Assembly (NCBI GenBank): GCA_023703655.1
Contig: CP097973.1
Coordinates: 478,170-542,169, forward strand
Origin: SAR86 cluster bacterium
GTDB lineage: Bacteria > Pseudomonadota > Gammaproteobacteria > Magnimaribacterales > D2472
Length of the DNA stretch: 64,000 bases
Direction: 5' to 3'
The notes under the pieces were generated by a model. It saw only the letters and a program-made list of their open reading frames with translations, did no database searches and was not told where the DNA came from. Made by a program: the position numbers and the translations under genes. Shown one piece after another: positions 1,418 through 26,030 of the stretch; position 1 is the stretch's first letter; each line of letters opens with the position of its first letter.

Positions 1418-1422
1418 ATGTA

Positions 1423-4229: not shown

Positions 4230-4231
4230 AT

Positions 4232-5428
4232 CTATCCTAAAGCCATGCTGTTCATCTGCATGATGGGTAATAAAATTGCTAAAACAATTAATAAAATAAT
4301 GCCGCCACCAAAAATTATAACCAAAGGTTCAAGCAAAGATAAAACAGTTGATCTTTTGCTTTCTATTTCCCCTTTCATATATTGCGCTACTTTTTCAAAC
4401 ATGAATGTTAAATTTCCTGACTTATAGCCACTTGAAAGAAGTTGTAAAAATAGGGATGGAAAAATACTGGCCTCTCTGAGTGATTGAATAAAATCTTTGC
4501 CCTCAACCAACTCAACCCTGGCATCTTTAACAGATTTAGCGATGTATTTGTTGCCTATGACAACGCTAGCTTGCTGCATAGAAACATCCAAGTTTAAACC
4601 TGATTTCATCATCAGATGCATCACTCTAGAAAAACGCTCAACCTCTGCATTTAATATAAATGAACCAACAAGAGGGATTTTTAAAAATCTTCTATGAATT
4701 GTGATTGCTTTTTGATCATTTTGAATAAGATGTTTGTAATAAAAAAAACCACCTAAAATCAGCAAAAAAAATGATAGAAGAATTAATACAGAATAATTTG
4801 ATACGCCCATTAAGACTGCTGTCAAAGTTGGTAGTTGTGTGCCTGCACGAACAAATTGATCAACAACTTGAGGCATAACAAATGTTAATAGAGCAAAAAC
4901 CACTCCCACTGAAAAGACCATTAAAATCACAGGATATGATAATGCTGAAATGACTTGCTGCCTTACCAATGCAGATTCTTCAAGATAATCTGCAAGATTG
5001 CTAAAAGCAATATGTAGGTTCCCTGCAGTATCTCCAGCTGCAACAAGCGATCTATAGGTTTCATTGAAGATGGATGGATGCGAGGACATTGCTTCAGCAA
5101 TTCTAGACCCTTGAAGAATCTCATCTCTTACTGCATGCAATGCTGAAGAAAGAGACTTATCTTCAACCTCAAGAGCAATAGATTTTAAAGTTTCATCAAT
5201 TGATATACTAGAATCAAGCAAAGTTGCAATTTGTCTAGTAGCAAACAGTAATTGCTTTTGGGATACCCTAACCTTTAAAAAATGATTTCTATTAGTTTTA
5301 CCTAAAGATAATGGTGTTAAGTTTGATGCTTTGATTTGCTGTCTCGCAGCACGTTCTGATTCAGAGCTTAAAATCCCATTAACTTTTTTTCCAGATTCAT
5401 TGATTGCAATGTATTTATAAGTTGGCAT
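4232..5428 (-). CDS. gspF: Type II secretion inner-membrane platform protein GspF
   Basis: The 398-aa polytopic protein contains two GspF domains (about residues 70-195 and 270-395), each with the hydrophobic hairpins of the T2SF family, and a short N-terminal cytoplasmic region with P-T-Y-K-Y. It is the central platform protein that couples the GspE motor to pseudopilus assembly. It overlaps gspE by 14 bp. Confidence 0.95.
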   Translation of the reverse strand: MPTYKYIAINESGKKVNGILSSESERAARQQIKASNLTPLSLGKTNRNHFLKVRVSQKQLLFATRQIATLLDSSISIDETLKSIALEVEDKSLSSALHAVRDEILQGSRIAEAMSSHPSIFNETYRSLVAAGDTAGNLHIAFSNLADYLEESALVRQQVISALSYPVILMVFSVGVVFALLTFVMPQVVDQFVRAGTQLPTLTAVLMGVSNYSVLILLSFFLLILGGFFYYKHLIQNDQKAITIHRRFLKIPLVGSFILNAEVERFSRVMHLMMKSGLNLDVSMQQASVVIGNKYIAKSVKDARVELVEGKDFIQSLREASIFPSLFLQLLSSGYKSGNLTFMFEKVAQYMKGEIESKRSTVLSLLEPLVIIFGGGIILLIVLAILLPIMQMNSMALG

Positions 5429-6911
5429 CTTGATTGTTTTGAACTCTTAAAAGTTCTTCATATGAAGTTAAACCATCACGTAAAAGTTGTGACGAGGACA
5501 GGTCTAAGGATAGGTTTTCTTTAAAAGCTGATTCAGCTAACTTTGCCTCTGAGGCTTCGTCATGTATCAGAGCTTTTAATTCATCAGAGATATTAATGCA
5601 CTCGGCAAGAGCAATCCTGCCTTTGAAGCCTGTGTTATTGCAGTTTGTACATCCAACGGCCTGATAAATATTTTCATTTTTATCAAGTTGAAACTCTTTT
5701 TGAATTGTAGCTGACGGCTTAACGGGGGTTTTACAATCTTCACACAGTCTTCGAACAAGTCTTTGAGCGATAACCACTCGTAAACTTGATGCTAAAAGAT
5801 ATGACTCAATACCCATGTCCCTCAATCTAGCAATAGCGCCAATAGCACTGTTGGTATGAATGGTAGAGAGAACTAAATGTCCTGTTAAACTTGCTTGGAT
5901 AGCAATTTTAGCTGTTTCAATATCTCTAATTTCTCCTACCATGACTATATCAGGATCTTGACGCAGAATTGATCTTAGACCTGAAGCAAAATCATATCCA
6001 GCTTTATTATTAACTTGAGTTTGTCCAATTCCTGGCAGAGTGTATTCAATAGGATCCTCAACAGTAAGGATGTTTTGTGAAGTATCACTTATATGTCGAA
6101 GGCCTGAATATAATGTTGTAGTTTTTCCAGAGCCGGTTGGGCCGGTAACTAAGATAATACCTTCCGAAAGTTGCAAAGCATTTTTATAGTTTCTTAAGAT
6201 AGAGTTTGGCAAACCCAAATCACCAACATTGATTTGCGCCGCCTGTTTATCCAATAACCTTAAAACAACTCTTTCACCATAAGATGATGGCAGTGTAGAA
6301 ACTCGAACATCAATTTTTTTTGCGCCCAATGATAGGGAGACTCTGCCATCCTGAGGCTTTCTTCTTTCAGCAATATCCAAACGAGCAATAATTTTTAAGC
6401 GCGAAATTATAGGCGCTGAAAGCCTTGAATCATGAGTTAAGACTTGTTGCAAAATTCCATCAACTCTATGCCTGATAATAAAGTTTTCTTCATAAGGTTC
6501 AAAATGTATATCTGATGCTCTCTCTTTGATAGCTTGGCTGATAACTCCATTGATAAGTTTGATAATTGGAGCATCATTTGCTCCACTTAATAAATCCTCA
6601 GTGGGAGCCAATGTATTTGCGAATGATTGCAAATCAAAGTCCTCCGAAAGACTGGTACTACCCAATACACCATCATCATCAGCGGAATAATATTCTGTTA
6701 ACAGTTGATCAAAATCAGTTGGCGAGCATGTTTCAGATTTAAAATGATTGGTCAGAAAGCGATATAGCTCTTGAAATAGATCTTTTGAAAGGGGTTGCTC
6801 AGATATAACTTGAGCTTGTTGATTTTTTTTAAACGCTATGACTCTTTGAGTTTTTGCAAATTCATAAGGTAGCAAAGGGCTCTTTGAGGTATCAGTCTGA
6901 TTCTTCGTCAT
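5415..6911 (-). CDS. gspE: Type II secretion ATPase GspE
   Basis: This 498-aa hexameric secretion ATPase has Walker A G-P-T-G-S-G-K-T-T at about residue 257, a Walker B-like V-M-V-G-E-I-R-D near 325, and Asp and His boxes. A zinc-binding pair of CxxC motifs (C-E-D-C near 390, C-T-N-C near 420) is typical of GspE/PilB. It powers pseudopilus polymerisation on the cytoplasmic face, docked to GspL. It starts 3 bp downstream of gspD and overlaps gspF by 14 bp. Confidence 0.97.
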   Translation of the reverse strand: MTKNQTDTSKSPLLPYEFAKTQRVIAFKKNQQAQVISEQPLSKDLFQELYRFLTNHFKSETCSPTDFDQLLTEYYSADDDGVLGSTSLSEDFDLQSFANTLAPTEDLLSGANDAPIIKLINGVISQAIKERASDIHFEPYEENFIIRHRVDGILQQVLTHDSRLSAPIISRLKIIARLDIAERRKPQDGRVSLSLGAKKIDVRVSTLPSSYGERVVLRLLDKQAAQINVGDLGLPNSILRNYKNALQLSEGIILVTGPTGSGKTTTLYSGLRHISDTSQNILTVEDPIEYTLPGIGQTQVNNKAGYDFASGLRSILRQDPDIVMVGEIRDIETAKIAIQASLTGHLVLSTIHTNSAIGAIARLRDMGIESYLLASSLRVVIAQRLVRRLCEDCKTPVKPSATIQKEFQLDKNENIYQAVGCTNCNNTGFKGRIALAECINISDELKALIHDEASEAKLAESAFKENLSLDLSSSQLLRDGLTSYEELLRVQNNQDANL

Positions 6912-6914
6912 ATA

Positions 6915-8756
6915 CTATTGCGTGAGATCTAAAATATCTTTATTGGATGATTCTATGATTTTTTCAGCATTGATATAATTGTATTTTTCCCCTGAAAGAG
7001 AAGCAACATCAGCTGAATCCATTAATATTGTAGGCCTTAAAAATACCATTAGATTTCTTTGCACCCTAGATTCAGCAGAGGATCTAAAGAGTCTCCCAAA
7101 AACTGGAATGGAGCCAAGCAGAGGAACTTTAGAGACGCTTTCCTGGAGATCATCTTCGTTTAAACCTCCTAAAACTATCATTTGATTATTATCTACCAAG
7201 ACAGTCGTTTCGATGCTTCTTTTGTTTGTAATAAGATCCACTGTTCCTGTTAAGGGGCCAACCACACCAGAAACTTCTTGTTTTATCTCTAAAATTACAG
7301 AATTGCCTTCATTAATTTGTGGCGTGATAGAAAGTTTTATACCAACTTCTTGACGTGAAGTAGTTCTAAAAGGATTGGCATTATTTGAACCAAGGCTCTC
7401 GCCAGTTGTAATTGGTATCTCTTGGCCTATAACTAAATTTGCAGGCTCATTATCCATTGCAATAACTGTATGCGTTGAAAGGATATCTGAATTTTGGTCC
7501 TCAGCGACTGCATTTATGATGCCAGCAAAACTATCTCCACCGCTTAAATCTCCAAACCCTGAAACTAAGCCAGAAGACTGCAATAATGAGGAGGATGCAA
7601 CATTGCTCAAAGTAGCATTTTCACCATCTTCAATCAATGATCCTGCCAAGGCAACTAAATCAGGATTCGATCCATTTTGGAATCTGGTAATACCAACGGG
7701 AACATTGCCATCTTGTGCGCCAACAAAAATTGTCTCAACGCCCAAACTCTTTGCAGCTGTTTCAGACAACTCAACAATGATTGCTTCTACAAGCACCTGT
7801 GCTCTCCTAATATCTAATTTAGATACCAAATTGCGAATGACCTCAAAATTTGTTTCTTCTGAAGAGACAATCAGTGAATTAGTTTCACGATGATGGGTAA
7901 CAATTGGTTTTTCATTATCATCACCTGCAAACCTAGATGAGACAGTGTTAATAATAGTGGCAACTTCTTCTGCTTTTGCATATTTAAGATACAAAACAGC
8001 GATCGAGCCTCCAGTCAAAGCATCTTTATCCAACGCATTCAAAGTTTCAGTAATGTTATTTATAACTAACTGACCTGCCGAAAGAATAACTGAATTTGAT
8101 GGTGTGAAAGGTACAGCTATAAAGTTGTTTATAGTTGGGTTATTTTGTGCTTTTAATCGATTAAGAATTCTTACCGCTTCAACTGATGAAAGATTATTTA
8201 ATTTAATAATCTTGATTGCTGCGCTATCGTTCTGATCAATTTTCTCAAGCAATTGGGCAATCCTTTCAATGTTTGATTTTTTATCAACCAAAAGGATTGA
8301 GTTAATCGATGGGATGCTCGAAAGATGAGATTGCCTTCCAGTAATAGGTTTGATTTGACTGAGAATTTCTGCTGCCGATCGATTTTTTAGCGTAAATATT
8401 TTTGTTTCTATAGAAGACTGACCAAGGGTTTCGTTGAAATCTCTGGTAGCCTCATTCTCAGGGACAATTCTAACCACCCCACCATCTGAAAGGGCTGCAA
8501 AGCCATGCACCTGAATAGTTTGCAAATAAACATCCCATACTTGATTAGATGTGAGAATTGAATCAGAAAAGATTGAAATTCTGCCTTTGACTCTTGGATC
8601 AAGTATCAAAGTTTTTTTAGAAAATTTAGAAATATCTTGGGTAACTTTTGCTATATCAACATCTTGGTAATTTAGTAAGAAGGTTTCTTGTGCGTGAGAT
8701 TGGATAGATAAAAGAATAAAAGGAATAAAAATTATGGATTTAATTTTTTTAATCAC
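6915..8756 (-). CDS. gspD: Type II secretion outer-membrane secretin GspD
   Basis: The 613-aa protein has a signal peptide (about residues 1-22), N0 and N1-N3 periplasmic ring domains and a C-terminal secretin domain. The secretin end carries the conserved V-P-L-L-G-S-I-P-V-F-G-x-L-F block. It forms the outer-membrane channel for folded exoproteins. It is slightly shorter than enterobacterial GspD, and no S-domain for a pilotin is obvious. It lies 1 bp after gspC. Confidence 0.96.
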   Translation of the reverse strand: MIKKIKSIIFIPFILLSIQSHAQETFLLNYQDVDIAKVTQDISKFSKKTLILDPRVKGRISIFSDSILTSNQVWDVYLQTIQVHGFAALSDGGVVRIVPENEATRDFNETLGQSSIETKIFTLKNRSAAEILSQIKPITGRQSHLSSIPSINSILLVDKKSNIERIAQLLEKIDQNDSAAIKIIKLNNLSSVEAVRILNRLKAQNNPTINNFIAVPFTPSNSVILSAGQLVINNITETLNALDKDALTGGSIAVLYLKYAKAEEVATIINTVSSRFAGDDNEKPIVTHHRETNSLIVSSEETNFEVIRNLVSKLDIRRAQVLVEAIIVELSETAAKSLGVETIFVGAQDGNVPVGITRFQNGSNPDLVALAGSLIEDGENATLSNVASSSLLQSSGLVSGFGDLSGGDSFAGIINAVAEDQNSDILSTHTVIAMDNEPANLVIGQEIPITTGESLGSNNANPFRTTSRQEVGIKLSITPQINEGNSVILEIKQEVSGVVGPLTGTVDLITNKRSIETTVLVDNNQMIVLGGLNEDDLQESVSKVPLLGSIPVFGRLFRSSAESRVQRNLMVFLRPTILMDSADVASLSGEKYNYINAEKIIESSNKDILDLTQ

Positions 8757-11881: not shown

Positions 11882-14758
11882 TTAATCCAAGCTTCCTGGT
11901 ACAGTCCAACCCTTGTACCAAGTATCAGTGGAGTCTTCTACAGCTCCAATATATGAAGTTGTTGTGAAGAAACTATCAGTTTCAGCAGTTACAGTAACAG
12001 CATTTTCAGCAGTACCATTGATTACACCAGTAACGGTAGGAACATAAGCTCCACCACCGGAATCTGCAGAGTAAAGGTTATTAGACCCAGCGGTTGCTAA
12101 GGCAGCGACTTGAGCTGCAGTAGCAGAATCATCTCCAGCAGCACCCAATGCTTTACAGTCAAATGCTACAGAATTGAAAGTTACTTTTGGTGTTGAAGCA
12201 CCATCTTGAAGGGTCTCTACTTTTGTATGCTCTAAGCAGGCTTTAGAATTGCTTGCCTCAAGCACTATTCCATTTTTGTAAATACCAGACACACCTTCTT
12301 TTAACTTAATAACATCGTCTAATCCGCTTGAAATAAATGTAAAGTTAGATATTTGAGGCTGGGATCTTGGTTCTGTAAGATACCCAACTGCAGCATCGTT
12401 ATTAACATTATCAGATTCAACAATATGGTCACCACGATCGCTAGATTGCTTAACAATTACAAATTGCATTTTGCCTCTGTAACCCCAATCAATATCAAGG
12501 TTATCATCGCCAGCACCTGTGCAGATTAAATATTTGACATTTACAGTTCCGCCAAAGAATTCAACACAGTCATCTTCATTGTTGTGAACTTGGATATATT
12601 CAACAGTGGTTCCAGTTCCAACGCCTCCAAAAGTAATACCGTTTAACTCATTACCTTCAAAGATTTCATACCCAGCATATTGGACTCTCAAGTATTTTAA
12701 GGTTCCAGAGTTGTCATCGTTTATTTCACCGCCCATATAATCTCCAGCAGAACCTTCAACGACCCTTTCGCAAGGAAGTGTTCTAACGCTATTAACAAAT
12801 GAGCATTTGTTCAATTGAGCTTTACCAAGGATGACTAAACCACCCCACAATCCTCTTGAGGAAGAAGTGACTTGGCCCATAACATCAGCTCTTGCTGTCA
12901 TAATGATTGGAGCAGATTTTGTACCAATCGCATTAATTTTTGAGCCTCTCATAACAACCAAGTAATCAGAACCAGATTCACCAAAGACGGTTACACCAGC
13001 TTCGATGGTTAAAGTAGCTGAAGCTCCGCCAGCTTTAGTGCCATCTGATCCCATATCATTACCAATTTGAATTTTTCCATCTAATGCATAGTAGTTACCT
13101 CTTTGTAGAGTCACATCGGTTGTATAGGTTCCATTCAATGTGCAAACTTTTTTACCCTCAATGCTTCCAGTTTCAACTGTCCCAGAAGGGCACTCTGGCG
13201 GAGTGAATAGTCCAGTGGTCCATCCTGCAGCCCAATTATTATCTTCGTCTGATCCAGGGGCAAAAGCACCAACATAATTTGTTGCAGAAAAGAATGAATC
13301 TATTTGAGTCCCATTTGGACACAAAGGATTTGTCTGAGCAGTCCCACTTCCAGTTGCGCATACGGCGGCTTCATTATTATGGGCTGAAACCACAGCTGAT
13401 TCATTAGTACCAAGGAAGTAACTTCCCACCAATGTTTGATCGCCATAAGTAAGCTTTGTCGATCTTGCTTCAATTGAAGCTCCCAATTCAGCATCAGTTG
13501 CAGAATCATCTCCAGCATTATATTTATTTGGAGTTGAAACGAATACTGAATGTGTTGCAACTTTATCAAAACCAGGTGCATCTTGAGTGGTTTCTAAAAA
13601 TGTATGCTCAAAAGCTGCTTTAGACGAGGAAGATGGAACAGACACTATGCCGTTCATATAGACTCCAGAAACTCCTTCTTTTAATTTAATCGCATCATCT
13701 TGCCCGTTAGAGATAAAGGTAAAATTTGCAATTTTTGGAGAAGAGCGAGGAGTCGTTAAATATCCAACTGCAGCATCACTATTAACATTATCAGATTCAA
13801 CAATATGATCACCTCTAGAATCTACCGTAGATTGAGCCACCAATACATATTGCATTTTCCCTGTGTAACCCCAATCAATATCTAAATTGTCATCACCTGC
13901 ATTGGTACAAACTAGATGTTTAACATTGACTGTACCGCCAAAAAACTCGACACAATCATCTTCATTGTTATGAACCTGAACATAATCGACTGTTGTACCT
14001 GATCCAACAGCACCAAAAGTAATACCATTTAATTCATTTCCTGGAAAAATTTCATAACCTGCGTGCTCAACTCTAACAAACCTAAGAGTTCCGGAATTAT
14101 CTCCTGGTAAAGCCCCGCCCATTATTGCATCTGTGCTACCCTCAACAGCTCTCTCACATCCAGCCGTGCCACGAAGTTCATTAGAACATCTATTTATTGG
14201 AGCCCTGCCAAGTATCACTACTCCACCCCATAAACCACGAGCTGTTGATGCGTTTGTGATTGTTCCATCAAGAACAGTTGAATGAGTAAATACAATTGGT
14301 TTGGAAGCGGTTCCAGCAGCTTCTATTTTTGAACCCCTATGAACAACAATATAATCATCAGTGGTTTTAGCAACTACAGTAACACCAGCTGGTATTGTTA
14401 GTACTGCAGGGTCGCCACCTGCTTTTGAACCATCGCCACCAACATCAGCTCCGATTTCTACTTTTCCTAAAAGTCTCCAAATCACATCATTGGTGAGACT
14501 AAGATCATCTTTAACAACCCCGGATATAGCACATACGGTATTGCCCGCTATTGAAGAGTCTGTAGATACATTTGTTCCAGAGGGACAACTTCCTGTTAAA
14601 ACTGAACCACCAACAGTAGCAGTTGTGGTAGTGGCAGTAGGAGGTGCAACTTGTGAAAGTTCTCCAGGTGATGAGATTGCAGTATCAGAACCACCACCAC
14701 ATGAAGCTAAAAATATAAGTGAAAATGAAATTATGAAAATTTTTTTGTTTGTAAGCAT
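11882..14758 (-). CDS. Large tandem-duplicated surface lipoprotein
   Basis: The 958-aa protein has a lipoprotein signal (L-I-F-L-A-S-C, Cys at about residue 20) followed by a Ser/Gly/Thr-rich linker. Two homologous halves of about 430 residues follow (about 55-510 and 525-955). Each contains A-G-V-T-V, R-G-S-K-I and G-L-W-G-G-(V/L)-V-I-L-G motifs, then E-L-N-G-I-T-F-G and H-N-N-E-D-D-C-V-E-F-F-G-G-T-V-N-V-K. The regular short strands suggest a right-handed parallel beta-helix. Each half carries conserved Cys residues and acidic clusters (D-N-L-D-I-D-W-G). No enzyme family is recognised. Co-transcription with the receptor suggests a surface binding partner, or a T2SS-exported protein (inference). 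Confidence 0.8.
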   Translation of the reverse strand: MLTNKKIFIISFSLIFLASCGGGSDTAISSPGELSQVAPPTATTTTATVGGSVLTGSCPSGTNVSTDSSIAGNTVCAISGVVKDDLSLTNDVIWRLLGKVEIGADVGGDGSKAGGDPAVLTIPAGVTVVAKTTDDYIVVHRGSKIEAAGTASKPIVFTHSTVLDGTITNASTARGLWGGVVILGRAPINRCSNELRGTAGCERAVEGSTDAIMGGALPGDNSGTLRFVRVEHAGYEIFPGNELNGITFGAVGSGTTVDYVQVHNNEDDCVEFFGGTVNVKHLVCTNAGDDNLDIDWGYTGKMQYVLVAQSTVDSRGDHIVESDNVNSDAAVGYLTTPRSSPKIANFTFISNGQDDAIKLKEGVSGVYMNGIVSVPSSSSKAAFEHTFLETTQDAPGFDKVATHSVFVSTPNKYNAGDDSATDAELGASIEARSTKLTYGDQTLVGSYFLGTNESAVVSAHNNEAAVCATGSGTAQTNPLCPNGTQIDSFFSATNYVGAFAPGSDEDNNWAAGWTTGLFTPPECPSGTVETGSIEGKKVCTLNGTYTTDVTLQRGNYYALDGKIQIGNDMGSDGTKAGGASATLTIEAGVTVFGESGSDYLVVMRGSKINAIGTKSAPIIMTARADVMGQVTSSSRGLWGGLVILGKAQLNKCSFVNSVRTLPCERVVEGSAGDYMGGEINDDNSGTLKYLRVQYAGYEIFEGNELNGITFGGVGTGTTVEYIQVHNNEDDCVEFFGGTVNVKYLICTGAGDDNLDIDWGYRGKMQFVIVKQSSDRGDHIVESDNVNNDAAVGYLTEPRSQPQISNFTFISSGLDDVIKLKEGVSGIYKNGIVLEASNSKACLEHTKVETLQDGASTPKVTFNSVAFDCKALGAAGDDSATAAQVAALATAGSNNLYSADSGGGAYVPTVTGVINGTAENAVTVTAETDSFFTTTSYIGAVEDSTDTWYKGWTVPGSLD

Positions 14759-14879: not shown

Positions 14880-15029
14880 TTAAGATGCAGGCAAGGTAAA
14901 CCAAAATTCTGAACCATTTCCTTGTCTTGAATTAACGCCTACCTCACCATGTAAATTATTTACAAGGTTTCTTACGATCGCAAGACCCAGTCCACTGCCT
15001 TGCTGAGTATTAGCTCGTGCTGCTGCAGT
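14880..15029 (-). pseudogene. C-terminal fragment of a PhoR-like sensor histidine kinase
   Basis: The minus-strand frame ending at the TAA 14880-14882 encodes about 49 residues with the ATP-binding G2 box ([11 protein letters not shown]) and a typical kinase end ([12 protein letters not shown]). No HisKA, N box or sensor part is present. The frame fuses out of phase to the PhoB-like fragment near 15026-15030, so an internal deletion seems to have joined the two genes. Product cannot be functional. Confidence 0.8.
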
Positions 15030-15352
15030 TCTATATTCATCCTTAAATCACCTGCCTCTATATCGGAGATATCATTTTCTTGCTGTGTACTAGCAGTACC
15101 TCTTTTTATGATAGCTTTTAACCTTAAGATTAATTCTCTAACACTAAAGGGTTTAGTGACATAGTCATCGGCACCCAATTCAAAACCGACGATTCTATCC
15201 ACTTCTTCTGTTTTAGCCGTTAGGATTATTATAGGAATATGTTTTGTTTTAGCATCAGATTTAATATCTCGACATAAAGTAAGACCTGAACCATCTGGTA
15301 ACATTAAATCTAAAATGATTACATCTATCTTATTTGCATGAATGATGGAATC
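15026..15352 (-). pseudogene. PhoB-like response regulator fragment
   Basis: From an in-frame stop at 15353-15355 the frame encodes most of a receiver domain. It has [10 protein letters not shown] with the phospho-acceptor Asp, the Thr of I-I-L-T-A-K, and the Lys of [11 protein letters not shown]. The linker follows to D-L-R-M-N-I-E-L, where the frame runs into the out-of-phase kinase fragment and stops at 14972. The N-terminal strand with the acidic pocket and the whole DNA-binding domain are missing. The receiver resembles PhoB. The adjacent Pho box fits an old phosphate regulator at this locus. Confidence 0.8.
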
Positions 15353-16215: not shown

Positions 16216-16500
16216 TTATAAAGATACTAGAATCTTTCCTTTATGAGGAGTGTTAAATTGACCCTGATAAAGGTTGGCTAAATGACTTTCACCCTCATTT
16301 TGCAAAAATTTTACTTTTGACTCACAAGTATAATTGGAGTCAATCACTCGATAATCCTCGTATTGAATATAGTCTGTAAAAAGACCAAACAATACAACAT
16401 CATGGTGATGTGCAGGTATATCTGTTGAAAGATAAATACTTCCACCATTTGCCGATGAAAAGCAACCAGCAGAGCCTTTTGGACAAATAGTTGCTACCAA
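16216..16500 (-). CDS. Small hypothetical protein, probably 5'-truncated
   Basis: With a TTG start at 16500 the product is 94 aa, with no recognised family. It contains C-P-K-G-S-A-G-C-F and a His-rich A-H-H-H-D-V, plus one further Cys. The reading frame stays open upstream to a stop at 16570-16572. That upstream part encodes a hydrophobic, signal-like stretch (L-K-S-L-L-H-L-C-L-L-F) but has no ATG, GTG or TTG. The natural start was probably lost where core DNA meets the integration-site region. Confidence 0.45.
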   Translation of the reverse strand: MVATICPKGSAGCFSSANGGSIYLSTDIPAHHHDVVLFGLFTDYIQYEDYRVIDSNYTCESKVKFLQNEGESHLANLYQGQFNTPHKGKILVSL

Positions 16501-16725: not shown

Positions 16726-16774
16726 AACCTTGCCAAGGTTGAGGTCGCGAGTTCGAACCTCGTTTCCCGCTCCA
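16726..16774 (+). tRNA. tRNA-Gly(GCC) 3' half only (attachment-site remnant)
   Basis: The sequence holds the anticodon stem-loop AACC-TTGCCAA-GGTT (GCC at 16732-16734), the variable loop, a T arm (GCGAG-TTCGAAC-CTCGT), the acceptor strand TTCCCGC, discriminator T and an encoded CCA. The D arm and the 5' acceptor strand (GCGGGAA expected) are absent, so it cannot make a tRNA. Such displaced 3' halves are left where a tyrosine-integrase element enters a tRNA gene. Confidence 0.85.
16756..16774 (+). repeat. tRNA-end att-like repeat, copy 1
   Basis: AACCTCGTTTCCCGCTCCA, the 3' end of the tRNA-Gly remnant. It matches 21431-21449 and 24877-24895 at 18 of 19 positions; the last 14 bases are identical. 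Confidence 0.85.
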
Positions 16775-16790
16775 GTTTCTTAGATTTCAA

Positions 16791-16846
16791 AACTCTTAGA
16801 TGTAGCACTTTTGTAGCACTTTGATCTAATTCTCATTTTAAGAGTT
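16791..16846. promoter_or_regulatory. Direct and inverted repeats at the island left end
   Basis: TGTAGCACTT occurs twice with an 11-bp period (16801-16810 and 16812-16821). The pair is bracketed by the inverted words AACTCTTA (16791-16798) and TAAGAGTT (16839-16846). The spacing and place, just inside the tRNA end, resemble integrase or excisionase arm sites. They could equally be operator sites for the helicase gene that starts 41 bp further on. Confidence 0.45.
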
Positions 16847-16886
16847 AGAATATAAGGTATGGAAAATCTTTAAGGTTTGATTAAAA

Positions 16887-19800
16887 ATGGCTAGAAAGTA
16901 TTTTAAATTAGGTATTCAGCAGCTTAAAGACATCTGTAACGAAAATAGAAATGATATTGCTATTTTAAAAGAAGTTCACCATGAACTTACCCACAGGAAA
17001 ACTCGCTCTGCTGTCGAACTGAGAGGAAACCTAGAGGCTTACTTTAAAAAAAATAATGCAGATAAACCAGCCACAGGAAAAACTGAAAAGGCTGGATCTT
17101 CAGGGGGTTCAAAGCCCAAGGCACCAAAAGGAAAATCAGATAAGAAAAAAAAATCTGATCAAGAAAACAAAGAGGATCCAAAGCCTAAGAAATCAAAAAT
17201 AAAAAAACCAGGTGATTTCTCTCAAGATTCATTATTTGAAGAACCTGCTCCGCAAAGTTACGATCGCAATTTTTCGCTTGTTGATTCTGCAGAAAATGCC
17301 CAATCAAAAAATACAAAATGGGTTACAAAACTCAGAGATAATAAAAAATATTTTTTAAATCTTGCACAGAATTCAAGCATCCTAGAAAGACAAATAGAAG
17401 CTTTAGATAAGTATATTCTTGAGCTCAAAAATTTTGGTAAAAGTAATACTTTTACAACTCTTTTGAATGGCTCTCATCTAAAAGAAAATCCTGGTTTATA
17501 TGTTTATAGTTTTGAGCTGGAAGATCCGCTCGAAGTTTTTGAGGGAGCCAAGGTAGAAATAACCATTGGAACTTCCCAAGACGAGGCTAAGGTTGCAGGG
17601 ATAGATGATAAAACTGTATTTCTTGAATTTGAAAAATATCAAGGCAAGGTTATTGAGTCCTGCATAGTAAAAATTGATAGAACACAATTATTACGAGCAC
17701 TGCATGAAAAGTTAACTGATGTGAGTAATGGGGAGATAGAGTCTTTCAATCACGACCTTGTTAAAAGTGTTTTTAATAATGATTCTGACTCCAAAGAGCC
17801 TGAGCTTAAGAAAAATGTTATCGGTCTTGATGGTCTTAATGACGAGCAAAGCTTAGCTGTAAGATATGCCATCGCTAACGAGGTTTCATATATTTGGGGA
17901 CCCCCGGGCACGGGTAAAACTAAAACTCTGGGAGTTTTAATAGAGAATTTTTTTGCAAAAGAAGAAAGATCACTTATTGCCTCAAATACCAATCAAGCTG
18001 TAGATCAAGTTTTATTAAAACTTTGCGAACAACTTGGAAAGGATCATGAGGCTATTCAGGAGGGTTATATTCTAAGGCGAGGAAAAATTAATCTAAAAGA
18101 ATTAAATCAAGGCTGGGGTGATTATGTTGATTTAGATAAAATCGTTGCTCGCAAATCCGAAGCACTTGTTTTGCAAGCAGATGAGTTGGAAGCGAAAATC
18201 AATAAATATAAAAATGAACTCGAGAAAGTAGAAAAAATTCTTTCTGCATTTAAAAACCTTGATGAAAAACATGCCTCATTAGCAGAAGCAAAATCTCTCT
18301 TTAAATCAACAAAAAAAGAAAAGCAGTCTAACTCTTCAAGGATTAAAGATCTTACTCAGACAGTAAAAGATTTAAAGCAAGAAGCCGAAGATAGAAAAGC
18401 TGCAGGCGCGTTAAGAAGATTATTACTTCGCAATGAACAACAAATTGAAAGTGATATATCTTATACAAAGTACTCGATAGAGCAGTTGGAGGAAAAGAAA
18501 ACCAATCTTCCAAAACTAATAAGTTCTCAGGAGAAGCAAATAAAAAGTCTTGAGGATGATCTAGAAATAATCTCCAAAAGAACGAAAGGTAAAGACAGGG
18601 ATAAAGCAGAGTCAGATCTTCAAGGAATTATTAAAGAGATGGGTCCATTGGAGGGTGAGCTGGCTAAAGTAAGAGAGGAGCTTGAAGGCATCAAGGAGAC
18701 TGTCATAAACAATGCAAAGATTGTTGGAGCAACAGTAACAAGAACCTACCTCAAGCAGGACGAGTATCTTGGATTTAATAATGTAATTATCGATGAAGCA
18801 TCGATGGTACTGCTACCTTCTTTATATAACGTTTTGGGGTTTGCCTCTGATAGATGCATTATCTCTGGGGACTTTAGGCAGCTTGCCCCAATCGTGGAGA
18901 CAAAGCAGAAAGAAATACACGAAGAAATTTCGAAGGATATTTTTTCCTTTTCAGGCGTCGAGGAGCTCAGCCAAAAGGGTAGAAACACTAAAAATTTAAT
19001 CATGCTCAAAAATCAATATCGCATGCAGAGCAATATATGTAATCTAGTAAATTCTTTTATGTATCAAGGAAATCTTGAAACAGCAAAGGATCAAGAGGTA
19101 GAAAACATCATCCCAGATTTTTATGAAAACATAGTAATTATTGATACATCTAAAGTATTTCCATTTTCGCAAAAGAAGGGTACTTCTTATTACAATCTCA
19201 TGCATGCCATGATCACGCGCAACCTGATTAATATATTTAATAAGCATTCAAAAAAAGAACTATCGATAGGTATTTGTTCACCTTATACAGCCCAAGCCAG
19301 AATGCATAGCTCCCTCAATCAAGATACTAATAATGTAACTGCTGGAACTGTCCATAGGTTTCAGGGTGATGAGAAAGACATCATGATTCTTGATACAGTT
19401 GATTCCCTTGGAGAAACTCAAGTTGGTTATTGGGCTTTATCTGATTTGCCTAGTGAGGATGGAAGCAAACTTTGGAATGTTGCAATCAGTCGCTCAAAAG
19501 ACCACTTATTTTTTATTGGCAATTTAACACACCTTAACTCTCATTTACCTAGAGCAAGCTTCTTAAGAAACATACTACATAGCGCTCAAAACTCAGGACA
19601 GGTTGTTCCGGTAGAGGAGATACTTAAACTTAGTGACCTCAAGGAGGAGCTCAAGCCATTGATTAAAAAATTTGAGCTCGATGATGCAACGGTTGAAAAG
19701 GGTTTATTTAATAATCAAGACTTTGAAAAAGTTTTTCTCGATGATATTCAAAACGCAAAATCAAATATAGCAATATTTTCAGGTTTCATTACTCCAAATC

Positions 19801-20414
19801 GAGTAGCACATTACGGTGATATTTTTAGAACTAAGATTGCTGAAGGTGTCCAGATAAGATGCGTTACTAGACCCCCAAAGAACAACGGTAGCATGAGAGT
19901 TGAGCTTGGAACTCAGGCTCTTGATTCACTTGAAGCTATTGGATGTGTAGTGGATACCAGAACAACCATTCATCAAAAAGCTGCAATCATTGATGACGAA
20001 ATCTCATGGTTTGGATCACTGAATCCGTTATCACATACATCTCTCACAGAAGAAACCATGGCACGAATTAATAATAAGGGATTTGCATCGCAACTTATTC
20101 AAAATCTCTCACTGAAGTTCGTAAAAGATACAAGAGGGGCAGCAGTTGCGAAAGAAAATCCTGAATGTGAATATTGCGGATCAAGGACTTCATATAACTT
20201 TGGTACTTACGGAAAGCCTGATTATTGGCGTTGTGAGAGCTGCAATAAGACAAAATCATTATTTGCTAGAGGTAAGAAAATAAAAGATAGATCTAAAGTG
20301 GGAGAGGATTGCCCAACAGGCTGTGGTGGAAAGTTAAGAATATCAAACGGCAGTAATGGAGAATTTTACGGCTGCAACAATTATCCAAGTTGCGGACACA
20401 CAGAGAACGGTTAG
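16887..20414 (+). CDS. SF1 helicase-PLD nuclease-zinc ribbon protein, Mokosh type II-like
   Basis: Domains of this 1175-aa protein in order: an N-terminal helical module (1-55); a Lys-rich linker; a COG1112/UPF1-like SF1 helicase with Walker A G-P-P-G-T-G-K-T (about 338), a long coiled-coil insertion (about 420-620), motif II D-E-A-S-M (636), G-D-F-R-Q-L, Q-Y-R-M (about 712), H-R-F-Q-G-D-E (about 822) and A-I-S-R-S (about 865); a PLD phosphodiesterase domain with one H-x-K-x4-D...G-S motif (about 1028); and two C-terminal zinc ribbons, the last like topoisomerase C4 fingers. A single HKD motif implies dimerisation. Helicase plus PLD in one chain is the described make-up of type II Mokosh anti-phage proteins (from memory; assignment inferred). 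All ATPase motifs look intact. ATG start follows an AAGG-like site; the WYL-like gene starts 2 bp after the stop. Confidence 0.85.
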   Translation: MARKYFKLGIQQLKDICNENRNDIAILKEVHHELTHRKTRSAVELRGNLEAYFKKNNADKPATGKTEKAGSSGGSKPKAPKGKSDKKKKSDQENKEDPKPKKSKIKKPGDFSQDSLFEEPAPQSYDRNFSLVDSAENAQSKNTKWVTKLRDNKKYFLNLAQNSSILERQIEALDKYILELKNFGKSNTFTTLLNGSHLKENPGLYVYSFELEDPLEVFEGAKVEITIGTSQDEAKVAGIDDKTVFLEFEKYQGKVIESCIVKIDRTQLLRALHEKLTDVSNGEIESFNHDLVKSVFNNDSDSKEPELKKNVIGLDGLNDEQSLAVRYAIANEVSYIWGPPGTGKTKTLGVLIENFFAKEERSLIASNTNQAVDQVLLKLCEQLGKDHEAIQEGYILRRGKINLKELNQGWGDYVDLDKIVARKSEALVLQADELEAKINKYKNELEKVEKILSAFKNLDEKHASLAEAKSLFKSTKKEKQSNSSRIKDLTQTVKDLKQEAEDRKAAGALRRLLLRNEQQIESDISYTKYSIEQLEEKKTNLPKLISSQEKQIKSLEDDLEIISKRTKGKDRDKAESDLQGIIKEMGPLEGELAKVREELEGIKETVINNAKIVGATVTRTYLKQDEYLGFNNVIIDEASMVLLPSLYNVLGFASDRCIISGDFRQLAPIVETKQKEIHEEISKDIFSFSGVEELSQKGRNTKNLIMLKNQYRMQSNICNLVNSFMYQGNLETAKDQEVENIIPDFYENIVIIDTSKVFPFSQKKGTSYYNLMHAMITRNLINIFNKHSKKELSIGICSPYTAQARMHSSLNQDTNNVTAGTVHRFQGDEKDIMILDTVDSLGETQVGYWALSDLPSEDGSKLWNVAISRSKDHLFFIGNLTHLNSHLPRASFLRNILHSAQNSGQVVPVEEILKLSDLKEELKPLIKKFELDDATVEKGLFNNQDFEKVFLDDIQNAKSNIAIFSGFITPNRVAHYGDIFRTKIAEGVQIRCVTRPPKNNGSMRVELGTQALDSLEAIGCVVDTRTTIHQKAAIIDDEISWFGSLNPLSHTSLTEETMARINNKGFASQLIQNLSLKFVKDTRGAAVAKENPECEYCGSRTSYNFGTYGKPDYWRCESCNKTKSLFARGKKIKDRSKVGEDCPTGCGGKLRISNGSNGEFYGCNNYPSCGHTENG

Positions 20415-20416
20415 TT

Positions 20417-21271
20417 ATGTCTTTAATTAAAAGCTGTGATCATTGTGGACAAAAAATCAGCATTAGACAGATGCCCTCAGGTCAATGGGTGGCTTTTGAT
20501 GCTCATACGGATAACCCTCATAAGCATGGAAAAAAAGCTAAACAAGCTTCCAAATCCTCGGTAGTAGATAGTAATTTTGCAAGAACAAATCAGTCGCTTG
20601 ATGATCAACACATAATTGATCGCAATAATGAGGTTTTCAGTCTAAAAAGAATCCCATCAGAGTGGCTTGATTTAACACCCTTGAATATTAAAAAACTCTT
20701 AAATAAATTAATGGAGAAAAACAGATCAGCCCACATCGGCTATCTAGATCGCAATGGTGATGGTTCAAGTAGGGAGATTTATCCTTTAAGTGTGGTGGAG
20801 GGTTTAGCTAGTAATCGAAGTAAATCAAAATCATTAAAAATAGTTAGCTACTGCAAATTAAGAGAAGACTATAGAACATTTTTATTATCAAGCATTGAGG
20901 AGATAAGGGCAGGAGAAAAAATACCTCAATCGTTTCTAACTAGTTTTGCTAACCTTGATGAGGATGAAAAAGAAGAAATTCTATCTGGGTCAAGTTTCTT
21001 TGGCTCAAACTCAAGACATATAGAGGAAATGCCAGATGATTATTTTGATAATGATATTAGTCATCAAAAGCCAGCCGATTCAACTAAATCTGTTTATGCC
21101 AAGAAAATTGAGCATGAAGTTAGCAATGACATAGAGGAAACAATAGTACCTCCTGAATTAACTTACACAAGCAATCAGCCAGAGAATTCATCATCCTCTG
21201 AAGGCTCTGGTTGGTCTACTGTAATATTTTGGATCATCCTTGTAATGTTCGCAGTTTTCTCATGTGGCTAA
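20417..21271 (+). CDS. Zinc-ribbon/WYL-like tail-anchored membrane protein (copy 1)
   Basis: The start at 20417 is 2 bp after the helicase stop; an upstream in-frame ATG (20390) lies inside the helicase and is less likely. The 284-aa product has an N-terminal zinc-finger-like C-D-H-C-G-Q...H-x3-N-P-H-K-H. A WYL-like domain follows (about 70-165) with R-E-I-Y-P-L-S-V-V-E-G and S-Y-C-K-L-R-E-D-Y-R-T-F, close to the Y-C-x-L-R-x-x-Y-R-x-F pattern of WYL proteins though the W-Y-L triad itself is changed. An acidic disordered linker leads to one C-terminal membrane helix (about 265-282). WYL domains sense nucleotide ligands and often regulate defence loci. A membrane-anchored partner or sensor for the helicase is my inference. 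Confidence 0.75.
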   Translation: MSLIKSCDHCGQKISIRQMPSGQWVAFDAHTDNPHKHGKKAKQASKSSVVDSNFARTNQSLDDQHIIDRNNEVFSLKRIPSEWLDLTPLNIKKLLNKLMEKNRSAHIGYLDRNGDGSSREIYPLSVVEGLASNRSKSKSLKIVSYCKLREDYRTFLLSSIEEIRAGEKIPQSFLTSFANLDEDEKEEILSGSSFFGSNSRHIEEMPDDYFDNDISHQKPADSTKSVYAKKIEHEVSNDIEETIVPPELTYTSNQPENSSSSEGSGWSTVIFWIILVMFAVFSCG

Positions 21272-21333
21272 AAAACATAACAATCTTATAAATCTCAATT
21301 GTTTTCATTTTCGTAATATGCAACTATGAGTAA

Positions 21334-21471
21334 ATGTCTCTTGAAACTAAATTAGATCAAATTTTAGAAAGATTGGATGTTATTAAAAGCTCATTAGGAA
21401 TCAAAAAACCTTCTCTTTGGGACAACCTAAAACCACGTTTCCCGCTCCATTTTAGATGTTATTTTTTGTAG
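21334..21471 (+). CDS. 45-codon ORF reading through the att-like site
   Basis: ATG at 21334 opens M-S-L-E-T-K-L-D-Q-I-L-E-R-L-D-V-I-K-S-S-L, an amphipathic coiled-coil-like helix, then runs through the tRNA-end repeat (R-F-P-L) and stops 22 bp beyond it. In copy 2 the same start fuses to the amidase fragment. Its C-terminus thus depends on what the element sits next to. Whether it is expressed is unknown; the heptad-like helix suggests a true small protein or the start of a lost gene. Confidence 0.4.
   Translation: MSLETKLDQILERLDVIKSSLGIKKPSLWDNLKPRFPLHFRCYFL
21431..21449 (+). repeat. tRNA-end att-like repeat, copy 2
   Basis: AACCACGTTTCCCGCTCCA differs from the tRNA-Gly remnant end (16756-16774) at one base. 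No T arm or anticodon arm lies upstream, so this is the short-homology end of the island rather than a tRNA gene. Confidence 0.85.
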
Positions 21472-22836
21472 CGTTCAAACCAAGCAATAATATGATCTAC
21501 CTTAGTAATCAATCTGGATGGCACACTTGCAATGCCATGAGAAGCACCAGGGATTCTTATCATCGCGCTTTCAACTCCCTTAAGTCTTAATGCTTGATAA
21601 AATTGTTCAGTTTCAGATATCGGTGTTCTCCTATCATCCTCACCAGTAATTAAAAGTGTTGGGGTGGTTACATTGCCTACCAATGAAAGGGGAGAACGTT
21701 CCCAATAATGTTCAAGATGCTCCCATGGAGGACCAGGAAATTGATGATAAATCTGACTTACCATAGAATCAGCTGTCAGCGTTTTGCTAAGCCAATTTAT
21801 TACAGGTTTAGCACTCACAGCAGCATTAAAACGATCGGTAAGACCAATTGCATAAGCAGTTGCGATACCTCCCGCACTACCTCCAGTAATAAACAAATTG
21901 TTTTCATCAACAAATCCCATACCAATTAGTGCATCAATTCCCGACATATGATCTTCAAAATCCTCTGGGCTTGAATATTTATATTGAAGCAAAAGGGCAA
22001 AATCCTCACCATATGACAGGCTTCCGCGGTAGTTGTCATAGAAAACAATATATCCTGCTGCAGCCATTGCTTGCATTTCCGCTGAGAAATATGGTCCATA
22101 TGCAAGATGAGGTCCACCATGAATTTCTAAAATTAAGGGATATTTCTTTGATGGATCAAAATCAGGCGGGGTAATATACCAACCCTGAATTTCTTGACCA
22201 TCAAACGATGATTCATAAATGATTTCGTTGACCTGACCAAGTCTTTTATAACCAAGCAAATCATCATTTAAGGCAGTTAACGCTAAAGGCTTACCATTTT
22301 TAACAATAGCCACATTGGATGGGCGATCTGGTTTGCCGTAAGTAAAAGCAATGGTATTTGCCGACATATGAAATCCACCTGACAAATAAGGTCTACCCAG
22401 AGATGTTCCACCAAGACCACTTACAATTTCTTTTATCGAACCATTCAAATTAACTTGACCTATTTTTCTAATACCACGCTCGTCGTAAGCAAAATAAATG
22501 GATCGATTATCATCAGCCCAAATAATGTCGTTGGCATCACCATCCAAATTTTTTGTTAACAACCTGCTTTTGCCACCATCAACACTTACAATTGCAATGC
22601 GATCGGGTGTATATGCAAGAGGTCTACGTTCTTCTTTAATAAATGCTAATGTTTTACCGTTTGGTGAAATAGATGGTGAGCGTTCCGCACCTGGCTCGGA
22701 AGTAATTTGTTTGAGTTCTTTGGTATCAATATTAATTGCATAAATATCAGCTTCATCGCTGACTAGTTCCCAGTCATTGGAACGATAGGCTGAGAAATAA
22801 ATCTCTTTACTGTCTACTGTCCATGCCAGAGAACCA
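21459..22836 (-). pseudogene. S9 prolyl oligopeptidase-family peptidase, 5'-truncated
   Basis: The frame is open from the repeat junction at 22836/22837 to the stop at 21459, about 458 residues. The first part holds beta-propeller repeats (S-I-S-P-N-G-K-T-L-A-F, D-I-I-W-A-D-D-N). The C-terminal part is a complete alpha/beta hydrolase domain with nucleophile G-G-S-A-G-G, Asp in G-E-D-D-R-R-T-P and His in G-A-S-H-G-I. An acylaminoacyl-peptidase-like enzyme normally has 600-700 residues, so about 200 N-terminal residues with the signal and start codon are missing. An internal ATG at 22562 would give 367 aa, but the homologous frame clearly extends upstream of it. The break coincides exactly with the start of repeat copy 2. 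Confidence 0.85.
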
Positions 22837-23860
22837 TGATACAGTTGATTCCCTTGGAGAAACTCAAGTTGGTTATTGGGCTTTATCTGATTTGCCTAGT
22901 GAGGATGGAAGCAAACTTTGGAATGTTGCAATCAGTCGCTCAAAAGACCACTTATTTTTTATTGGCAATTTAACACACCTTAACTCTCATTTACCTAGAG
23001 CAAGCTTCTTAAGAAACATACTACATAGCGCTCAAAACTCAGGACAGGTTGTTCCGGTAGAGGAGATACTTAAACTTAGTGACCTCAAGGAGGAGCTCAA
23101 GCCATTGATTAAAAAATTTGAGCTCGATGATGCAACGGTTGAAAAGGGTTTATTTAATAATCAAGACTTTGAAAAAGTTTTTCTCGATGATATTCAAAAC
23201 GCAAAATCAAATATAGCAATATTTTCAGGTTTCATTACTCCAAATCGAGTAGCACATTACGGTGATATTTTTAGAACTAAGATTGCTGAAGGTGTCCAGA
23301 TAAGATGCGTTACTAGACCCCCAAAGAACAACGGTAGCATGAGAGTTGAGCTTGGAACTCAGGCTCTTGATTCACTTGAAGCTATTGGATGTGTAGTGGA
23401 TACCAGAACAACCATTCATCAAAAAGCTGCAATCATTGATGACGAAATCTCATGGTTTGGATCACTGAATCCGTTATCACATACATCTCTCACAGAAGAA
23501 ACCATGGCACGAATTAATAATAAGGGATTTGCATCGCAACTTATTCAAAATCTCTCACTGAAGTTCGTAAAAGATACAAGAGGGGCAGCAGTTGCGAAAG
23601 AAAATCCTGAATGTGAATATTGCGGATCAAGGACTTCATATAACTTTGGTACTTACGGAAAGCCTGATTATTGGCGTTGTGAGAGCTGCAATAAGACAAA
23701 ATCATTATTTGCTAGAGGTAAGAAAATAAAAGATAGATCTAAAGTGGGAGAGGATTGCCCAACAGGCTGTGGTGGAAAGTTAAGAATATCAAACGGCAGT
23801 AATGGAGAATTTTACGGCTGCAACAATTATCCAAGTTGCGGACACACAGAGAACGGTTAG
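22837..23860 (+). pseudogene. Helicase-PLD 3' fragment (duplicate)
   Basis: This is identical to residues about 836-1175 of the protein at 16887-20414. It keeps helicase motif VI, the PLD domain and both zinc ribbons but lacks Walker A, motif II and the N-terminus. The first ATG in frame (22823) lies in DNA antisense to the S9 peptidase, so there is no native start. If translated it would yield a free-standing PLD-zinc ribbon protein. Confidence 0.88.
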
Positions 23861-23862
23861 TT

Positions 23863-24717
23863 ATGTCTTTAATTAAAAGCTGTGATCATTGTGGACAAAA
23901 AATCAGCATTAGACAGATGCCCTCAGGTCAATGGGTGGCTTTTGATGCTCATACGGATAACCCTCATAAGCATGGAAAAAAAGCTAAACAAGCTTCCAAA
24001 TCCTCGGTAGTAGATAGTAATTTTGCAAGAACAAATCAGTCGCTTGATGATCAACACATAATTGATCGCAATAATGAGGTTTTCAGTCTAAAAAGAATCC
24101 CATCAGAGTGGCTTGATTTAACACCCTTGAATATTAAAAAACTCTTAAATAAATTAATGGAGAAAAACAGATCAGCCCACATCGGCTATCTAGATCGCAA
24201 TGGTGATGGTTCAAGTAGGGAGATTTATCCTTTAAGTGTGGTGGAGGGTTTAGCTAGTAATCGAAGTAAATCAAAATCATTAAAAATAGTTAGCTACTGC
24301 AAATTAAGAGAAGACTATAGAACATTTTTATTATCAAGCATTGAGGAGATAAGGGCAGGAGAAAAAATACCTCAATCGTTTCTAACTAGTTTTGCTAACC
24401 TTGATGAGGATGAAAAAGAAGAAATTCTATCTGGGTCAAGTTTCTTTGGCTCAAACTCAAGACATATAGAGGAAATGCCAGATGATTATTTTGATAATGA
24501 TATTAGTCATCAAAAGCCAGCCGATTCAACTAAATCTGTTTATGCCAAGAAAATTGAGCATGAAGTTAGCAATGACATAGAGGAAACAATAGTACCTCCT
24601 GAATTAACTTACACAAGCAATCAGCCAGAGAATTCATCATCCTCTGAAGGCTCTGGTTGGTCTACTGTAATATTTTGGATCATCCTTGTAATGTTCGCAG
24701 TTTTCTCATGTGGCTAA
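23863..24717 (+). CDS. Zinc-ribbon/WYL-like tail-anchored membrane protein (copy 2)
   Basis: The 284-aa product is identical to the protein at 20417-21271 (same zinc finger, WYL-like domain, acidic linker and C-terminal helix). The gene is complete. Its native upstream partner is reduced here to a promoterless 3' fragment, so expression is uncertain unless a promoter lies inside the helicase fragment. Confidence 0.75.
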   Translation: MSLIKSCDHCGQKISIRQMPSGQWVAFDAHTDNPHKHGKKAKQASKSSVVDSNFARTNQSLDDQHIIDRNNEVFSLKRIPSEWLDLTPLNIKKLLNKLMEKNRSAHIGYLDRNGDGSSREIYPLSVVEGLASNRSKSKSLKIVSYCKLREDYRTFLLSSIEEIRAGEKIPQSFLTSFANLDEDEKEEILSGSSFFGSNSRHIEEMPDDYFDNDISHQKPADSTKSVYAKKIEHEVSNDIEETIVPPELTYTSNQPENSSSSEGSGWSTVIFWIILVMFAVFSCG

Positions 24718-24779
24718 AAAACATAACAATCTTATAAATCTCAATTGTTTTCATTTTCGTAATATGCAACTATGAGTAA

Positions 24780-26030
24780 ATGTCTCTTGAAACTAAATTA
24801 GATCAAATTTTAGAAAGATTGGATGTTATTAAAAGCTCATTAGGAATCAAAAAACCTTCTCTTTGGGACAACCTAAAACCACGTTTCCCGCTCCAACTCA
24901 AGCAAAATAACTACTTTATAATTGGCAAAACTAATTTATCTGAGTGGGCAAACTTCAGATCAACTGGGTCTGTTTCTGGATGGTCAAGTTTGGGAGGACA
25001 AACGTTAAATTCATATGGAAGGAATTTAAATCCATGTGGCTCAAGTTCAGGATCTGCGGTAGCTGTTAAAGATGGTTTGGTTGAAGTTGCCATTGGCACT
25101 GAAACCAATGGATCTATTTCATGTCCAGCATCTGTGAATGGTATTGTTGGTATTAAACCAACTGTTGGTCTAGTAAGTCGTCATGGTATTGTCCCAATTT
25201 CATCAACTCAAGATACTGCTGGACCAATGACAAAAAGTGTTGCACTTGCAGCACAAGTGTTGTCTGCGATCTCAGGATTTGATCCAAAAGATAAAGCAAC
25301 CTATAACATTCCTAGTACCATGACATTTAATTTTGCTGATGATTTAAGTCTTGATGGATTGCAAAACAAAAGACTTGGATTGTTAGTAAGCGGTCAAGAG
25401 TATGAAATTGGTCAAAAATTATTAGATAAAATTAAGAATACGATTGCAGCACTTGGTGGTGAAGTAGTGATGATTGAGGATAATAGGGAGTATCCTGGCA
25501 ATGACGAGTATTTTCTTTTACTTTACGAATTTAAATACGGTATTGATAAATATTTGCAGTCTAAAAAGAATCTCAATGTAAGCTCTTTGGATGATCTTAT
25601 TATATTTAACGAGGCTAACAAAGATGAGGTAATGCAACATTTTGATCAAGATATTTTTTATCAAAGTGTAGAAGCTTCATTGGATCAAGAGAGATACGAA
25701 GATGCAAAAAAAATTGTCATAGAGGCGCAAAATGATATCCAATATCTCTTAAATCAAAACAATCTAGACGCTTTAGTTGGTCTTACCAGAAATCCTGCAT
25801 GGGAAATAAATTATGTTGGTGGAGATGATAAAGCAATGGACAAACAACTATCATGGGGTAATGGTGGGTTTGCAGCAATAGCAGGATTCCCACACATAAC
25901 AGTACCTTTGTCATTGGTAAATGGATTACCCGTTGGTGTATCATTTATCGGTGGTGCATGGTCTGAAAAATCATTATTAGAAATGGCGTATGCATTCGAA
26001 CAATTTAATCAAGTTGGAGAGATTGAATGA
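24780..26030 (+). pseudogene. Amidase fragment fused to the island small ORF
   Basis: The first 38 or so codons are the island small ORF (M-S-L-E-T-K-L-D...) and the tRNA-end repeat. From 24896 the frame continues as an amidase-signature enzyme with the cis-Ser G-S-S-S-G-S, the nucleophile region G-T-E-T-N-G-S-I-S-C-P-A-S and G-I-K-P-T-V-G. The N-terminal 100-150 residues with the catalytic Lys (the K-D-N motif) are gone, so activity is not expected. The downstream cyclase-family gene overlaps by 4 bp, so the original amidase was its operon partner. Confidence 0.85.
24877..24895 (+). repeat. tRNA-end att-like repeat, copy 3
   Basis: Identical to 21431-21449 as part of the large duplication. 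It joins directly to amidase coding sequence in frame. Confidence 0.85.

Follow-up and report, generated by a model that had tools for sequence, protein, structure and literature searches.

A finger-WYL protein with a predicted C-terminal membrane helix, encoded beside a Mokosh-like helicase-nuclease within a tRNA-bounded island of SAR86

Most WYL domains described so far act as sensors in soluble transcription factors or belong to soluble effector helpers. Fusions of WYL to nucleases, helicases, BRCT and TerB domains have been described (Makarova 2014); in the passages of that survey considered here, the only membrane-associated case is a CARF protein. Membranes are likewise not mentioned in the paper on BrxR (PMC9122601). 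An accessory function is known for WYL1 of Cas13d, which binds single strands and stimulates its effector (PMC6547453), and the WYL domain of Pif1 similarly binds single strands and stimulates an effector, the single strands in these precedents being ssDNA or ssRNA. Among the Mokosh defense proteins, MkoC is described as an RNA helicase whose effector domain is a PLD nuclease (PMC10013915), and the mechanism of Mokosh was still listed as unknown in a 2026 review. Furthermore, recurrent tRNA-end repeats are a hallmark of the additive flexible islands found in Methylophilaceae (PMC10872708).

Here we describe a locus of a SAR86 cluster bacterium, at which a gene for a finger-WYL protein with a predicted membrane tail directly follows a gene for a helicase-nuclease of Mokosh-like layout (Table 1). 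The window, i.e., the whole stretch of DNA analyzed, comprises 64,000 nucleotides. Its ORF list places the finger-WYL-TM gene, our target, exactly where the sequence-only reading of this DNA had located it. The ATG at position 20417 was preferred over an upstream TTG (20390), because both homologs possess the same start, the N-terminus MS[YL]I[KR] being common to all three proteins in the alignment. A single-sequence search of genome contigs for homologs gave no match. By an alignment-based search of the contigs two full-length SAR86 homologs were detected (assemblies AG-390-P05 and AG-893-O10), all other matches being HTH-WYL proteins. The full-length family was found in SAR86 only, where it occurs sporadically (three of 107 genomes of this bacterial family, the window's own included). 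Outside the window's genome, the 369 genomes of the class disclosed WYL-region matches only and no full-length relative, and a search of IMG/VR for the family returned none. The plasmid search gave WYL-region matches only, mostly of the YafY type, and one finger match, again with no full-length relative.

Table 1. Features of the finger-WYL-TM gene and of the surrounding island (positions in the window)
Feature	Position	Strand	Details	Basis
Finger-WYL-TM gene	20417..21271	+	284 aa, stop codon included	ORF, Pfam WYL, homologs, AF2
Cys-Cys-His-His finger	20435..20527	+	residues 7-37; putative zinc binding	
WYL domain	20678..20920	+	residues about 88-168	Pfam, PDB profile, AF2, Foldseek
Conserved two-helix extension after WYL	20921..20989	+	residues 169-191; helices 171-178 and 182-190; conserved IP.SF..F...IL.G	AF2
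Disordered linker	21008..21211	+	residues 198-265; pLDDT <50 over 212-263; acidic in target only	
C-terminal membrane helix (predicted)	21212..21268	+	residues 266-284	AF2, hydrophobicity
Partner gene	16887..20414	+	1175 aa; SF1 helicase (AAA_11/AAA_12), PLD nuclease with one HKD motif, zinc ribbons at the C-terminus	Pfam, PADLOC
Island with helicase-PLD and finger-WYL-TM genes	16775..21449	+	4675 bp, between tRNA 3'-end repeats	
Left island boundary	16726..16774	+	49-bp 3' fragment of tRNA-Gly(GCC); identical to the end of the intact tRNA-Gly	
Right boundary of island copy 1	21436..21449	+	14-bp tRNA-Gly 3'-end repeat CGTTTCCCGCTCCA	
Second copy of 19391-21449	22837..24895	+	2059 bp, 100% identity; C-terminal 340 codons of helicase and whole WYL gene (23863-24717)	

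The only Pfam domain recognized in the target was WYL (PF13280, residues 95-164), whose score of 27.1 bits exceeded the curated cut-off of 21.8 bits, as did those of the two homologs (37.7 and 27.1 bits). In a PDB search with a profile built from the target, its homologs and distant WYL regions, PafBC (6.4e-9) and Pif1-WYL (7.4e-9) were found. The AF2 model, calculated with nine sequences, contains a helix (residues 88-100) and five subsequent strands up to residue 168, which make up the WYL domain with pLDDT values mostly above 90; this level was reached over nearly all of residues 80-190, the block 131-140 showing a value of 74. BrxR, CapW, PafBC and DriD were the top Foldseek structures (probability 1.00), and in the well-fitting superpositions 79-96 columns matched at 2.4-2.9 Å. 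The target thus shares the Sm-like beta-barrel known from solved WYL structures. TM-scores were low, because the shared domain accounts for only approximately 80 of the 284 residues. WYL proteins encoded by phages likewise match the fold. Thus, the WYL fold is well supported, and the WYL-like core that had been suspected from the letters alone is affirmed. An HTH was not detected by Pfam, and the N-terminal part was modeled as a beta finger and a disordered stretch, which agrees with the previous claim that the protein lacks a DNA-binding HTH.

At the position of the W-Y-L triad (W195-Y196-L197 in PafB of M. smegmatis, whose printed alignment starts at residue 153) the target contains L140-K141-I142. 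The homologs exhibit I-K-I and L-K-V, so that W-Y-L is absent from all three proteins and the triad is indeed altered, as had been noted. This alteration does not exclude a WYL domain, because accepted members such as Pif1-WYL vary too. Three arginines by which PafB contacts ssDNA, R181, R204 and R208, correspond to R119, R149 and R153 of the target in the alignments and are kept in all homologs. The contacts Y196, R211 and R214 are replaced by K141, L156 and S159, the homologs having S/E and L/G at the R211/R214 positions. Consequently, half of the six contacts are kept and half lost, consistently across the finger-WYL-TM family. In PafB, the mutations R181A, R181A/R204A/R208A, Y196A or R211A/R214A abolished ssDNA binding (PMC11804915). 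Since three of the six contacts are missing, canonical PafB-type binding of ssDNA is not to be assumed. From the aligned residues a nucleic-acid ligand appears plausible, and the earlier suggestion that the ligand may be a different one is reasonable.

The finger ahead of the WYL domain (C7-x2-C10 ... H35-x-H37, with H-x-C instead in one homolog) was modeled with strands at residues 3-6, 13-18 and 24-28 (pLDDT 77-88), while residues 40-59 are disordered. C7, C10, W24 and H35 are invariant in the alignment of the three SAR86 proteins, which supports the C-x2-C/His-rich finger proposed earlier; judging by these residues, it may bind zinc. The same module recurs in a membrane protein encoded by a Bradyrhizobium plasmid, which begins with MSSYTRPCRHCGRRINLRQMPHGQWVAFE...H-x-C and continues with a stretch rich in proline, followed by several hydrophobic segments, WYL being absent. 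On this sequence evidence, we regard the finger as a transferable unit. A weaker relative of the finger was noticed in a short unannotated frame on plasmids of Rhizobium and Agrobacterium (L085 and L086, around 3000-3230), where it adjoins a nucleotidyltransferase-SLATT gene pair.

Both homologs retain the finger, the WYL domain, the two-helix extension and a C-terminal helix ending on the last residue. The net charge of the linker was -10 in the target and +3 and +5 in the two homologs; hence the acidic linker, which had been regarded as a feature of the protein, is peculiar to the target. The predicted membrane helix (residues 266-282) shows a pLDDT of approximately 89 and a Kyte-Doolittle value of 2.45 over 17 aa, and no second segment of comparable hydrophobicity exists in the rest of the target. 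According to hydrophobicity, all three proteins have the layout of a tail-anchored protein with a single C-terminal TM helix and no other hydrophobic stretch. The single membrane helix predicted at the outset was thus recovered. Of the two findings that would have spoken against the sequence-only reading, a fold unrelated to WYL and homologs devoid of the C-terminal helix, neither was made. By means of this helix the protein probably sits at the inner membrane.

The target's ATG starts 2 bp after the stop of the partner gene (20414). Besides the helicase domains, Pfam identified PLDc_2 and a Top1-type zinc ribbon in the partner, and its motifs are intact: GPPGTGKT (Walker A) at residue 338, DEAS at 636 and one HKD motif, H1029-x-K-x4-D. 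PADLOC gave a higher score for MkoA (188.7 bits) than for MkoC (129.6 bits), the best MkoC stretch spanning residues 634-1058 and not the full length. SF1 helicase and PLD nuclease are fused in one protein, which is the arrangement of MkoC. With only about 25% identity to anything on plasmids, the partner is a distant relative of Mokosh.

A neighborhood analysis of the homologs, which had been proposed as a check, disclosed the helicase-PLD gene next to the WYL gene in two genomes and other defense genes in the third. In the second genome (G001) the two genes are again adjacent, their products being 46% (WYL) and 59% (helicase) identical to those of the window. There, the WYL gene is inverted and convergent with the helicase gene, 2 bp from its stop. 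As the adjacency survives without an operon, a functional pair is supported, albeit by two examples only. The third gene (G038, contig L068) is located between a DUF4420 and a PDDEXK_3 gene (PD-(D/E)XK genes), within a cluster at 318-8546 that comprises HATPase, Z1 (Mza-like), DUF4420, finger-WYL-TM, PDDEXK_3 and a Schlafen-group helicase, the last matching the candidate defense family PDC-S41 with 891.8 bits. The 10-kb contig contains no helicase-PLD gene; therefore, the association of the WYL protein with this partner is not a strict one. Defense genes surround the family at all three loci.

In the window, the gene pair resides on an island flanked by tRNA 3'-end repeats of 49 bp and 14 bp, as is typical of an element integrated at a tRNA site. 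The repeat core TTTCCCGCTCCA is the 3' end of tRNA-Gly(GCC), whose intact gene (G000:C1:477588-477663) lies 506 bp before the window. It occurs three times in the window, compared with 0.07 occurrences expected by chance even when one mismatch is tolerated. The tandem array of these repeats suggests successive insertions, and the mobility of the island is well supported. Among the listed ORFs of 16775-24895 no recombinase-like ORF was present, and thus no tyrosine recombinase as in tycheposons. The related loci agree with this picture. The G001 cassette and the 3' end of a tRNA-Glu lie no more than about 0.7 kb apart. In G048, the end of an intact DPP ortholog (L065, 7853-9883) and a tRNA-Met 3' end are separated by 6 bp, so that the DPP/S9 peptidase gene may itself travel between tRNA sites. 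On the opposite side of the G001 cassette and of the G048 DPP gene, the flanking DNA examined contained no repeat of the tRNA-Glu or the tRNA-Met 3' end, respectively. Some further observations were made in this region. The first array segment (approximately 17.3 kb) contains genes for type II secretion and for a TonB-dependent receptor, which were assigned by inspection of their translations. Apparently truncated genes of a response regulator and a small protein (14972-15304, 16216-16500) occur in the region as well. A Ppx/GppA-like piece, apparently truncated as well, lies just after the intact tRNA-Gly (L095, 7715-7960), and a predicted lipoprotein of 958 aa (11882-14758) harbors an internal repeat of about 484 bp with 72.5% identity (12202-12676 versus 13579-14062).

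The target gene is present twice, as it belongs to an exact direct repeat of 2059 bp. Both copies of the repeat terminate at CGTTTCCCGCTCCA, the second tRNA-Gly 3'-end repeat being located at 24882-24895. The segment 21450-24895 (3446 bp) consists of a DPP/S9 peptidase fragment (21450-22836) and the second copy. Judged by the G048 orthologs, about 210 N-terminal residues are missing from the DPP fragment and about 76 from the amidase that follows copy 2 (24780-26030); the amidase is fused in frame to a short repeat ORF (MSLETKLDQILERLDVIKSS...). The missing part of DPP was not found elsewhere in the genome and the amidase N-terminus not in the window and one further stretch, and the joint at 22836/22837 revealed no long homology to the other flank. 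A plain tandem duplication was rejected, because one copy is bordered on its right by DPP and the other by the amidase, and because copy 2 starts, on its left, within the helicase gene. A deletion after two insertions and a chimera of assembly or amplification both fit the second copy. Since both right ends coincide with a tRNA 3' end, real site-specific insertion is favored for each of them.

Taken together, we propose with a probability of roughly 0.55 that the mobile tRNA-bounded island carries a Mokosh-like anti-phage module of two genes, and that the target serves this module as a nucleic-acid-sensing accessory tethered to the membrane. The defense role, the nucleic-acid ligand and the physical partnership with the helicase-PLD protein are what we infer here. 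The C-terminal helix would hold the protein at the inner membrane, from which a flexible linker would let the finger and the WYL barrel extend into the cytoplasm. Finger and WYL may engage either the partner helicase or nucleic acid of the phage, be it transcripts or DNA that enters at the membrane, and this engagement would recruit or license the SF1 helicase-PLD protein, which could then unwind and cut the phage nucleic acid. The sequence-only reading had regarded the protein as a membrane sensor rather than a repressor. The lack of an HTH and the predicted tail are in line with this, but the stand-alone view is incomplete: an accessory of a defense effector describes the protein better, because the neighborhood is a two-gene helicase-PLD module on a tRNA-bounded island. 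More tentatively, one may think of a new defense module in which the anchored finger-WYL protein detects phage nucleic acid as it arrives at the inner membrane and passes it on to the helicase-PLD protein, the WYL-TM protein being re-used as an exchangeable sensor by the unrelated Z1/PD-(D/E)XK system.

The main rival to the accessory reading is a brake, i.e., a membrane-tethered WYL regulator that keeps the helicase-nuclease inactive until a ligand binds to WYL. It would act by protein contact, unlike the promoter-binding BrxR and CapW, on either activity or expression. WYL proteins commonly restrain defense systems (PMC9122601), the occurrence in two different defense contexts would suit a general regulator, and the finger could bind nucleic acid. 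Yet an HTH is absent, and the gene lies directly downstream of the effector gene, not upstream, and is inverted in G001. The sequence evidence does not separate a brake from an activator; on balance, we consider the brake rather improbable. Still less probable is an effector role, in which the WYL protein would oligomerize via finger or WYL upon infection and perturb the membrane with its tail, independently of the neighboring nuclease. The preservation of the tail in all homologs, their two different defense neighborhoods and the related finger module beside a nucleotidyltransferase-SLATT locus, of a kind associated with membrane effectors, are consistent with such a role, but one short helix at the very C-terminus speaks more for an anchor than for a pore, and WYL is a sensing fold, with neither an enzymatic nor a pore domain present. 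That the gene is an island passenger with a non-defense role, e.g., membrane-anchored RNA handling, and associated with defense by habitat only would agree with the small number of loci (three) and with the many kinds of genes at such sites, the DPP/S9 peptidase fragment in the same array among them, but is unlikely in view of the defense genes at every locus and a helicase-PLD adjacency that outlasts inversion.

If the accessory reading is correct, a membrane-anchored WYL protein together with a helicase-nuclease would put nucleic-acid sensing where phage DNA enters, and WYL-TM would add a component to Mokosh-type defense. Very small tRNA-bounded islands may also be a route by which single defense modules spread in streamlined marine bacteria, SAR86 among them. 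Each of the three elements, i.e., WYL fold, helicase-PLD layout and tRNA-bounded island, is already known by itself; the literature searched contained neither the finger-WYL-tail architecture nor a combination of it with a Mokosh-like effector.

Among the known systems, RspWYL1, the Cas13d accessory of type VI-D CRISPR, is likewise a stand-alone WYL protein with an Sm-like barrel beside a nucleic-acid-targeting effector. However, it has an N-terminal RHH and a C-terminal dimerization domain (PMC6547453), whereas the target exhibits a finger and a membrane tail, with no dimerization domain seen. With BrxR, CapW, PafBC and DriD it shares the WYL fold and a defense or DNA-damage context, and half of the PafB ssDNA contacts are kept; it differs from them by the lack of an HTH and a WCX domain, by the altered triad and by the membrane helix. 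In PADLOC, the family matched the models of RTasWYL-YodC and of CRISPR-associated WYL proteins best, the G001 homolog reaching 3.4e-12, but the match spans only the WYL end of the 354-position model, and no reverse transcriptase was seen near the family genes. As to Mokosh (MkoA and MkoB in type I, MkoC in type II), the partner unites SF1 helicase and PLD nuclease in one protein, as MkoC does, but its helicase core is nearer to MkoA than to MkoC and it carries extra C-terminal zinc ribbons. To our knowledge, a WYL-TM partner is part of no described Mokosh system. The island resembles additive flexible islands and tycheposon-like elements, in which tRNA-end repeats mark successive insertions; it differs from them by its SAR86 host, and no recombinase gene was seen within 16775-24895. 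Finally, Zorya and Kiwa combine a membrane component with a cytoplasmic nucleic-acid effector, the same division of labor as proposed here, by means of unrelated proteins devoid of a WYL domain.
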